Of a DNA stretch of 64,000 nt, positions 19,093 through 22,068 are shown piece after piece. The notes beneath the pieces are model-generated. The model was not told where the DNA came from. It searched no databases and worked only from the letters and a program-made list of their open reading frames with translations. Each line of letters starts with the position of its first letter. The stretch's first letter is position 1. Both the position numbers and the translations under genes were made by a program. Source of the DNA: Phycisphaerales bacterium (GTDB lineage Bacteria > Planctomycetota > Phycisphaerae > Sedimentisphaerales > UBA12454); the NCBI GenBank assembly GCA_003142595.1, contig PLMU01000003.1:318501-382500 (forward strand). The letters are read 5' to 3'.

Positions 19093-20178
19093 TTATGCGA
19101 TATGCCGTAGTTTAATTTTGTTTTCCCAGAGATTTAATAAACGGAAGGGTTCGTTTCTGGTAGAGTGTGCTAACCACCATTTGTTTTTATATGGTTGAAG
19201 ACCATTTTTCAGAAGCATATTATTTACCTTTTCATCAGCACGTTCTACCATTCGTCGTATATGGCGAGCCGGACTAAAATCAGCTTGCCTTAAATAATAC
19301 ATCATACCGGTAGTTCTTTGTCGCAGATCTGATAGGAAAGGTAAGTCAAAAGGAGTGGCACAGCGACAACATCTGGCATAATGTATTGCAAGTTCAAGTC
19401 CATCTTTAATATGTTTTTCTTTGGGCCTTAAACCACATTTAGAATTTATAATAAGGCTATGAATATCCTTAAGTTTATCGCCGGCAAGTAAGCCTTTTTC
19501 TCTACGTTTTTTTTCATTAATCTGTAAATTTTTTTGACGGATTCTGTAATCCAACTCTTTCTCCAGATCAACTGCCTTTTCGCGAGAATTCACAGAAATA
19601 ACAAAGTCATCCGTTAGTCGTCCATAGTGACCACTTTTAGCTCTCACCCTTCTATACAAGTGGTCGTCCAACCGAAGCATATACAGGTTTACTGCTAACG
19701 AACTAAGTGGACCGCCTTGCGGTATTCGGCCATGCACGGTCATAATCGAAGATAGGAATTTAGCAAAGGCGACTGTTGCCCCAAGTTTAATGAAAGCGTT
19801 AAAAAGTCCTGCTGATGTAATGGACGGATAGCAATCTTTTATATCACGAATAACCACAAATTTAGCGCCACAGTGAGGTTTTGCACTGGTAAACGATGAA
19901 CGACCAGGAACACCGCCATGGGCTGCAGGATGATGTTTAATGTTCCTCGAAAGGATTTTTGCCATTCGCCTGAGCAATTTTTTGTATTCTGGTTTTGGCG
20001 CATCTATGTCCCTGAAACCTCCGCTGGGTTTCTTTTGAGGGCGCGTTGGTTTATACATTGCCGTAGTATCCCCTGCCAATTTCCACAGCAAACTCGCGGA
20101 GGCTTTGCATTCTACAGCAAGCCACTCAACTGTCATTCCATCTAAAGGTTGCTTAACAGTTCTGTTACCCAACCGCAT
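19093..20178 (-). CDS. Divergent retron-like reverse transcriptase
   Basis: 361 residues. RT landmarks in order: GGFRDIDAP near 53-61, AAHGGVPGRS at 85-94, SAKPH at 98-102 (place of the retron NAxxH motif), RDIKDCYPSI with catalytic D112, IPQGGPLSSLAVNLY at 152-166, and YGRLTDD with D190-D191 (normally YxDD; the Tyr is Leu here). HSLIIN at 240-245 stands where retron RTs have VTG. No maturase, endonuclease or DGR signature is present. ATG 20178 has AAAGGA 6 bases upstream and overlaps the XRE gene by 14 bases, so expression is coupled. It is the last gene of a three-gene cassette preceded by a structured untranslated region. Confidence 0.85.
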   Translation of the reverse strand: MRLGNRTVKQPLDGMTVEWLAVECKASASLLWKLAGDTTAMYKPTRPQKKPSGGFRDIDAPKPEYKKLLRRMAKILSRNIKHHPAAHGGVPGRSSFTSAKPHCGAKFVVIRDIKDCYPSITSAGLFNAFIKLGATVAFAKFLSSIMTVHGRIPQGGPLSSLAVNLYMLRLDDHLYRRVRAKSGHYGRLTDDFVISVNSREKAVDLEKELDYRIRQKNLQINEKKRREKGLLAGDKLKDIHSLIINSKCGLRPKEKHIKDGLELAIHYARCCRCATPFDLPFLSDLRQRTTGMMYYLRQADFSPARHIRRMVERADEKVNNMLLKNGLQPYKNKWWLAHSTRNEPFRLLNLWENKIKLRHIA

Positions 20179-20476
20179 CTTGAATCCTTTTTTCAAAAAC
20201 TTCCATCTGATTCAGCATAGAGATAAGGCGACTTGTTAAATCATTACTGCTATTCAGAGAAGAATTAGAGCCCGACCCGATTAAAAAAAATATATCTGCC
20301 GGAACATTTAAAGCTTCCGAAAGTCGTTTAATTACATCGAGTGACGGCGTACGTTTATCCGCCTCAACTAAGCTCAGATAAGGGGTACTTATCCGAGCTT
20401 CGGAAGCTAAAAAACCGAGAGACTTATTATTTGCTTCTCTGATTATCTTAATGGCTCTGCCAACAGTAACTGGCAT
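20165..20476 (-). CDS. XRE-family helix-turn-helix regulator
   Basis: 103 residues. The HTH spans about 6-61, with the recognition pattern FLASEARISTPYLSLVE and the closing LSEALNVPADIFFL typical of Xre/Cro proteins. A serine/asparagine-rich linker and a helical tail follow. It has AAGGAGC before the ATG. It lies between a small helical gene and the reverse transcriptase on one strand and probably controls the cassette; an inverted repeat (CCAATCG/CGATTGG) in the promoter spacer is a possible operator. HTH proteins also occur as retron accessory genes. Confidence 0.88.
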   Translation of the reverse strand: MPVTVGRAIKIIREANNKSLGFLASEARISTPYLSLVEADKRTPSLDVIKRLSEALNVPADIFFLIGSGSNSSLNSSNDLTSRLISMLNQMEVFEKRIQDAVG

Positions 20477-20530
20477 AACAAGCTCCTTAAATACAGACTA
20501 AAGAAACGTGTTTTACAAAAACACGCCATG

Positions 20531-20830
20531 TCAAGATGCGAGAATACAAGTCAATTTATGTTCAAGTTTCTCAAGCATTAGCTCAAGCAACTCAACCATA
20601 ACGATTGCGTCCGCCGCTTGTAAATTAGCAGTATGTGAGGCGATTGCCTCAATAGTCTTTGCTAATTTAATAGCGTCATCTATGTTTCCCCAAGCTTTTT
20701 TGCCAAAAGCCTTCTCATTTTTATTGAGAAGTTTACGAATGTTTATGGCTTTAAATTCAATAGCCTTGATAACATTCGTTGGCCTTAGAAAAGCCTGTTG
20801 ACGATTGGAGTTTACGTTTTTACCTGACAT
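20531..20830 (-). CDS. Small all-helical protein of the reverse transcriptase cassette
   Basis: 99 residues, lysine/alanine/leucine-rich, no membrane segment and no recognised domain. The C-terminal half (ANLQAADAIVMVELLELMLEKLEHKL) is a strong amphipathic helix that could dimerise. ATG 20830 has AAGGAG 7 bases upstream; an earlier ATG at 20872 falls in the structured RNA and lacks a ribosome site. It is the first gene of the cassette, so it may be an effector, an antitoxin or an RNA-binding partner of the RT. This is inferred from position only. Confidence 0.65.
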   Translation of the reverse strand: MSGKNVNSNRQQAFLRPTNVIKAIEFKAINIRKLLNKNEKAFGKKAWGNIDDAIKLAKTIEAIASHTANLQAADAIVMVELLELMLEKLEHKLTCILAS

Positions 20831-20865
20831 AAAAAAACTCCTTATGTGTAGACCAGATAAAATAT

Positions 20866-21118
20866 TCTCCATGTATTATCGGGAGGAGAACGTCTCCTAC
20901 CGTGGGGAAACCATCATGGCCAGAGGATATAGTGCACTCACTCACCTCAGGTTTCTTAGCTGAAATACAGGGGCCACGTGTCTTCAAGTGCACCACGACC
21001 ACCTGGAACCCGAAACAGATTTAGCACCGTTTCAGTTGTCTGTCTGCTGGGCAGACAGCAAAATGGAGATCCAATCGAACTGACTTTTGGCTTAAGCGTT
21101 ATTCATTTTTAAAAGAAC
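20866..21118 (-). ncRNA. Candidate structured RNA upstream of the RT cassette (msr-msd-like)
   Basis: About 250 bases with no gene between the cassette promoter and its first gene. On the minus strand, ends at 21063-21069 and 20866-20872 pair (TCTCCAT with ATGGAGA). Inside are a perfect 8-bp hairpin (21040-21058, loop of 3), a 5-bp stem (21012-21033), a 7-8 bp stem joining 20932-20939 with 20986-20993, and a 6-bp hairpin (20884-20898). Outer closing repeats plus internal hairpins ahead of an RT gene fit a retron msr-msd. Pairings were done by eye; the branching G is not identified. Confidence 0.5.
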
Positions 21119-21124
21119 GGTCTA

Positions 21125-21153
21125 ACTTTACCATGCGATTGGTCTTTTGTCAA
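21125..21153 (-). promoter_or_regulatory. Promoter of the retron-like cassette
   Basis: On the minus strand TTGACA (21153-21148), 17-base spacer, TAAAGT (21130-21125). Predicted start near 21118. CGATTGG at 21136-21142 lies in the spacer and pairs with CCAATCG at 21071-21077, a possible operator for the XRE protein. Confidence 0.55.
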
Positions 21154-21405: not shown

Positions 21406-22068
21406 ATGGCAAAAATTCCTTTTTACATCCCCATCCCTGATTTTATTGCGCATATATGCGTGTGGTTTTTGCTGCGCTATAGAAAAAAACATTACGGCAT
21501 CGCGTTTAGGAAAATTAAACTGACAGGCGGGAAAAACGAAACGAAAATGTCCGCCGGGACAAAACCCGTCGAGACAAACTTTGCTGCGGCGAAGTTTGCA
21601 ATCGTTGACCCGGAAGATTATCAGAAATTATCGAAATACAACTGGGAATGTTTTGAAAAGGAAAGCAATCGCTACGCTATCCGACTCGAAGGCAGGAAAA
21701 TAGTATCTATGCATCGAGAGATAATGAATGCGCCTGTCGACAAAGTTGTTCATCACGAGGACGGAAACGGACTTAATAACACAAAAAAAAATCTGCGAAT
21801 TGTAACTGTTTCGGAAAATAACAAATATGTCAGGAAAAGAGGCAGGGCTGCAAGCTCGAAATATAAAGGAGTCAGTCTTGAAAAAAGAAATGGAAAATGG
21901 CGGGCAGGTATAAAATCCGACGGAAAATATAAAAGTCTGGGATACTTCGAAAATGAAGAAGATGCCGCAAGGGCATACGATGAAGCGGCGAAAATATATC
22001 ACGGCCAGTTCGCCGTTTTAAACTTTGGCCAGACGGAAGTTAATAAACTTAAAAATGTTATCTCGTAA
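21406..22068 (+). CDS. HNH homing-type endonuclease with AP2 DNA-binding domain
   Basis: 220 residues. An HNH nuclease core is seen in MHREIMNAP, VHHEDGNGLNNTKKNLRIV (catalytic HH and the N residues), followed by an AP2-like domain (SKYKGVSLEKRNGKWRA to GYFENEEDAARAYDEAA). Such proteins are selfish DNA endonucleases or their domesticated kin. Between RKIKLTGGK and FAIVDPEDY there is an extra stretch of about 20 residues whose DNA has an inverted repeat (CAAACTT with AAGTTTG), likely an in-frame palindromic insertion. The stop codon overlaps the sigma factor stop region by 11 bases, convergently. A strong promoter lies upstream. Confidence 0.85.
   Translation: MAKIPFYIPIPDFIAHICVWFLLRYRKKHYGIAFRKIKLTGGKNETKMSAGTKPVETNFAAAKFAIVDPEDYQKLSKYNWECFEKESNRYAIRLEGRKIVSMHREIMNAPVDKVVHHEDGNGLNNTKKNLRIVTVSENNKYVRKRGRAASSKYKGVSLEKRNGKWRAGIKSDGKYKSLGYFENEEDAARAYDEAAKIYHGQFAVLNFGQTEVNKLKNVIS

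Follow-up and report, generated by a model that had tools for sequence, protein, structure and literature searches.

The window, a 64,000-nt stretch of DNA from a Phycisphaerales bacterium, contains a compact group of genes with a reverse transcriptase (RT), which the initial annotation had read as a retron or a sister RT-based defence system of an unusual type. The locus raises the question of whether this cassette is a retron, and how it is related to the retron types already described. Judged from its sequence, the cassette is a real retron. It belongs to a divergent lineage that resembles type VI, and its small protein represents a new family; this family and the divergent RT/XRE lineage are what is new here.

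Layout of the cassette and structure of its upstream RNA

The features of the cassette are collected in Table 1. The minus-strand promoter proposed in the initial annotation matches the sigma-70 type at 10 of 12 positions, with a 17-nt spacer, and TTGAC-type sites could be read by eye at about the same place upstream of the relatives. The small ORF is counted from an ATG preceded by AAGGAG, and an alternative 113-aa version starting from 20872 is possible. The annotated order of three genes, the last two overlapping by 14 bases, was confirmed, and this overlap of the XRE and RT genes holds with the ATG start of the RT. The RT is the sole RVT_1 match in the 2.28-Mb genome assembly.

Table 1. 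Features of the candidate retron cassette in the window
Feature	Position	Strand	Properties
Candidate retron cassette	19093-21153	minus	promoter, structured RNA, small gene, XRE gene, RT gene
Sigma-70-type promoter	21125..21153	minus	TTGACA-17-TAAAGT; TTGACA from 21153, TAAAGT to 21125
boxA-like leader element	21105..21118	minus	GTTCTTTTAAAAAT; 4/14 mismatches; not significant alone
Candidate msr-msd non-coding RNA	20866..21069	minus	multibranched, ~204 nt; trimmed to a1/a2 ends -77.6 kcal/mol, z -3.1; untrimmed (320 nt) z -2.0
a1 arm of closing inverted repeat	21063..21069	minus	TCTCCAT; 7-bp pairing with a2
a2 arm of closing inverted repeat	20866..20872	minus	ATGGAGA; 7-bp pairing with a1
3′ hairpin	20882..20901	minus	GGTAGGAGACGTTCTCCTCC; most relatives share a purine-rich arm and a similar loop
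Small gene	20531..20830	minus	99 aa; predicted three-helix bundle; homologues in relatives
XRE-family helix-turn-helix gene	20165..20476	minus	103 aa; HTH_VI (top profile) 62 bits; Pfam HTH_3 43 bits
Retron-type RT gene	19093..20178	minus	361 aa from ATG at 20178; 367 aa from TTG at 20196

Relatives of the locus were sought in its taxonomic class by tblastn and profile searches, and such loci are present in other Planctomycetota. The RT was 53% identical to the window RT in L034, 36-38% in L035 and L037, 36% in L036 and 29% in L038, while L073 was a match to the RT profile (231 bits), and L072 and L074 contained RT fragments at contig edges. A further locus, L065, was found by a search with the small protein; it contains the small gene and the XRE gene next to a decayed RT, and it may either have kept these two genes without the RT or be decaying. 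The order of RNA, small gene, XRE and RT was kept in all seven relatives with upstream sequence, including L065 with its decayed RT.

The hairpin-rich RNA closed by a 7-bp pairing, as described in the initial annotation, was recovered in the window, and comparison of the loci extended this observation. In each of the eight loci, that of the window among them, the trimmed upstream RNA was more stable than its dinucleotide shuffles (z -2.75 to -7.45). The cassette is more than a chance arrangement, since homologous loci keep the three genes in order and every one of these eight has a structured upstream RNA. Most loci have a terminal helix, whose sequence differs between loci but pairs within each locus (CCCCGC/GCGGGG in L034, AGCCTCC/GGAGGCT in L035, TCCTCCT/AGGAGGA in L036, TCCCTCCTTC/GAAGGAGGGA in L065 and GGACCT/AGGTCC in L073), and in L038 the end helix has 4 bp only. 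Hence, homologous loci lacking a conserved upstream RNA structure, which the initial annotation had named as an outcome that would speak against a retron, are not what was found. An adjacent structured non-coding RNA closed by a1/a2 repeats is a defining feature of retrons, and it is present at the window locus.

The specificity of the terminal pairings was analyzed by swapping the a1 and a2 arms between loci. The whole-RNA alignment with MAFFT misaligned the 5′ ends, so folds of individual loci and these swapped-pair tests were used instead of a covariance model. The pairings of each locus with its own partner outscored the swapped ones, as only 7 of 5040 permutations and none of 2000 shuffles were as good, in narrow regions that were set by eye and that favour this result, while the first test with wider regions was weak and not significant (384 of 5040). 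The a2 arm and the Shine-Dalgarno sequence overlap in several loci, which explains the GGAGG shared between loci. In most loci a hairpin is located shortly before a2; it was above chance in L034 and L065, while in the window alone it was not (51 of 300 shuffles). The Rfam search of the window returned chance matches only, and a conserved priming G could not be assigned in the candidate RNAs.

A boxA-like sequence of the TGCTCTTTGAAAAT type was observed between the promoter and a1 in L034-L038, L065, L073 and the window. It has 1-4 mismatches among the relatives, is strong in L036 and L073, and is weaker in the window than in some relatives. Such a sequence would hint that the structured RNA is subject to antitermination. 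In the same genome, the region upstream of the 16S rRNA gave no recognisable boxA.

Identity of the reverse transcriptase and its relation to type VI retrons

The PDB profile search and the tree, as had been proposed for the RT, and also its predicted fold grouped it with retron RTs. In PADLOC the first match of the window RT was RT_VI (133 bits), and in NCBIfam it was the St85 retron RT, with a score under its 235-bit cut-off. A profile of six member RTs matched the retron chains Ec86 (95 bits), Kva2 (78 bits), Ec67 (70 bits) and Ec78 (61 bits) in the PDB, while the non-retron chains scored 41 bits for DRT2, 37 bits for group II and 25.5 bits for a DGR chain, which is titled "Reverse transcriptase" in the PDB and was identified as DGR in the fold search. 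With Ec86 so far above group II, the firm clustering with group II or DGR enzymes, which the initial annotation had also named as an argument against a retron, was not observed. The AlphaFold2 model of the RT had a pLDDT of 89, and ranks 1-13 of its Foldseek search of the PDB were occupied by retron RTs only. Judged by these profiles and by the predicted fold, the window RT belongs to the retron RTs and not to the group II intron, DGR or DRT enzymes.

The motifs of the RT are altered in part. The catalytic D and DD residues are invariant across the six members that were aligned. Region X reads SAxxH or AAxxH in these, compared with NAxxH in Ec86, with A and H invariant, and region Y starts with [I/V]H[S/N/G] in place of VTG. 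The YADD motif of the RT is also altered. Ec48 (Eco6) represents another retron type, which has a transmembrane effector. According to PMC6868368, its RT does not keep the N of NAxxH and has H for the T of VTG; both changes are also seen in the window RT. In a survey of retron RTs, VTG was present in only 47%, while in NAxxH the N was conserved in only 62%, the A in 87% and the H in all (PMC4244168). Given this frequency and the change in Ec48, VTG is not a strict requirement, and its loss does not exclude membership among retrons. Ec86 (Eco1), which is the best solved relative of the window RT by both profile and fold, has NAxxH and VTG intact, unlike the window RT, and its effector is a ribosyltransferase-like protein (PMC12948488). 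The motif changes in the window RT could mean a different RNA recognition. The altered VTG and YADD, together with the RVT_1 domain, which is common to all RT classes, would also agree with a non-retron system, such as a DRT/UG, Abi or DGR system or a group II intron remnant. However, retrons are favoured by profile, by fold and by tree alike, an RNA closed by a1/a2 repeats is adjacent, and the match to group II RNA reached 18.5 bits, below the 49-bit cut-off, on the other strand, which makes a non-retron system very improbable.

Type VI retrons consist of an RT, a DNA-binding protein and a small auxiliary protein, as described in PMC8541194, which cites Mestre 2020, and the window has a small auxiliary gene, a DNA-binding gene and an RT in one operon. 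The same order of RNA, small gene, XRE and RT is found in the type VI retrons of Klebsiella phage ST147-VIM1phi7.1, P2_2H1, KS5, Shewanella MuM16-1 and Staphylococcus plasmids, the phages compared being P2-like and Mu-like. In these systems XRE and RT are adjacent or overlapping, and the systems scanned gave RT_VI and HTH_VI as top profiles, as did the window clade. Their small peptides, which are 47-67 aa long, basic and amphipathic, differ from the 90-101-aa three-helix protein of the window clade. In the window and the four relatives scanned, the top profiles were RT_VI (118-133 bits, with small margins over other RT types) and HTH_VI (60-67 bits), which is about half of the 260-345 bits and 100-105 bits of the canonical phage and plasmid type VI systems. 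The layout small gene-XRE-RT recurs in the planctomycete loci L002, L003, L021, L046 and L050, and RT_VI was best where scanned; these loci differ from the window in having other small proteins, and their RTs are nearer to canonical type VI or intermediate. L046 and L050 form a second planctomycete lineage with this layout, and their small proteins appear different from those of the window family.

In the unrooted RT tree the window clade was recovered as monophyletic with 100/99 support; its branch was long and stood beside L023, L046 and L050. The clade, these three loci, canonical type VI and L082 were located on one side of a branch with 93/95 support. In AU tests, the window clade, type VI and L082 as one clade were not rejected (p 0.33), and there was no firm rejection without L082 (p 0.077). 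When the tree was rooted on a group II intron RT, the window clade was placed outside all other sampled retrons, a position which could possibly result from long-branch attraction, and in the best trees the window RT was outside the type VI clade. L082, from Bacteroides uniformis plasmid pBUN2, has a very basic 73-aa amphipathic ORF (1090-1311) before a retron-like RT, and no XRE directly before this RT, yet it is near type VI in the tree.

These data can also be viewed as the signs of a new retron type other than VI, in which the layout evolved independently or another RT took the place of the original one, while the profile matches reflect general similarity of retrons and of XRE proteins, and the cassette still works as a retron. 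The low RT_VI scores near those of the runners-up, the low HTH_VI scores, the rooted tree, and the differing size and make-up of the small protein would agree with such a type. On the other hand, the careful unrooted tree unites the clade with L023, L046, L050 and canonical type VI, two of these loci (L046 and L050) also carry small gene-XRE-RT, and the AU test does not reject the clade with type VI and L082, so that we consider a separate new type somewhat unlikely. The window clade probably represents either a divergent branch within type VI or a sister lineage of this type. It is called type VI-like, and not firmly type VI, because of its tree placement and because of the common layout with different small peptides. 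The retron part of the initial reading is supported by profile, fold and tree, while the unusual type has to be qualified, as the best match is the known type VI. The lineage is weakly recognised by current retron profiles.

The small protein and a proposed mechanism

The small-protein family has members of 90-101 aa, of which those aligned are 26-34% identical to that of the window. Its homologues were detected by phmmer with E values of 1.7e-13 to 1.3e-4, and they are present in all relatives covering that region. Between L035 and L037, the closest pair, the dN/dS was 0.35 for the small protein, 0.15 for the RT and 0.10 for XRE, and of the two accessory proteins XRE was the better conserved. 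The AlphaFold2 model of the small protein is a three-helix bundle with a pLDDT of 82, with low confidence for the first 13 residues. No family was found for it in PADLOC, NCBIfam or PDB sequences; Pfam gave nothing but single-member matches (E 0.03 and above), PHROGs gave one match only (E 0.05), and the model had no PDB fold match below E 1. There was also no resemblance to a known toxin, no sign of a membrane segment in the composition, and no similarity to the small protein of L003 in a profile comparison. By these searches, the small protein is a new, previously undescribed family, and in the clade it is small, soluble and confidently folded.

Retron effectors are usually the variable part of the system. 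By analogy, the small three-helix protein is the likely effector of the cassette, because it is its exchangeable part. Alternatively, it could be an accessory subunit of the ribonucleoprotein, with XRE as the responder, for instance by switching transcription. The small protein having no recognised family or fold match and XRE being the better conserved accessory protein are consistent with this assignment, but nearly all type VI-like loci examined closely encode at this position a small helical protein of differing make-up, which is as expected of exchangeable effectors, and XRE as the responder therefore appears unlikely. The comparison of the clade with other type VI-like loci suggests that the small component is swapped between unrelated families, while the RNA, XRE and RT stay.

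A mechanistic study of type VI retrons was not found in the literature searched, and the precedents come from other types. In a retron precedent, RT-msDNA is the sensor of an effector (PMC12948488). The type IX Kva2 retron combines an RT, a helical protein that binds DNA and a helical effector within a single operon, like the cassette in the window, and its DNA-binding WH protein cradles the msDNA hairpin (PMC13405049). Kva2 differs from the window in that this protein is a WH and not an XRE, and its effector is a HEPN RNase, for which no sequence or fold link to the window small protein was found.

The cassette is probably an anti-phage immune system, by analogy with these retrons, and the best explanation, which we regard as reasonably likely, is a divergent type VI-like retron in which RT-msDNA restrains a small-protein effector that is freed by phage. 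In this model, the folded RNA would serve the RT both as primer and as template for msDNA synthesis, and the RT and msDNA, probably with the XRE protein, would hold back the activity of the small protein. The XRE protein may contact the hairpin of the msDNA, like the WH protein of Kva2, and may act as a repressor of the promoter as well. If msDNA is bound, modified or degraded by a phage, the small protein would be freed, and it would then stop host growth and block phage production. It is possible, if on the doubtful side, that the cassette is instead a retron type of its own, so far confined to Planctomycetota, with an effector from a previously undescribed three-helix family checked by RT-msDNA and XRE.

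Distribution and genomic surroundings

The clade provides a comparison set of eight loci in bacterial genomes, and not in phages. It is patchy, as it was present in 9 of 397 genomes of the class including that of the window, and it was not found in the other searched members of the genus of the window. A single-sequence scan of genome contigs gave no relatives, while the six-RT profile detected five loci there, all already known from the whole genomes; viral contigs gave no relatives.

The neighbours of the cassette in the window, apart from one AP2/HNH gene, are housekeeping genes and not a defence island, the other neighbours being named from sequence only. This gene, at 21406-22068 on the plus strand beside the retron promoter, is of the homing-endonuclease sort, with an AP2 domain and a weak match to HNH_3, and it may mark a mobile insertion. 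A clean empty site was not found by synteny with genomes of the same genus. Among the relatives, ThsB of Thoeris (L059, 161 bits), HmaC (L058, 350 bits), GmrSD (L060) and a phage integrase (L061) were each observed adjoining a locus, and these neighbours are an indirect sign of a role in defence. Genome G352 contains two different retron-type RTs (L010 and L038), one of which belongs to the window clade.
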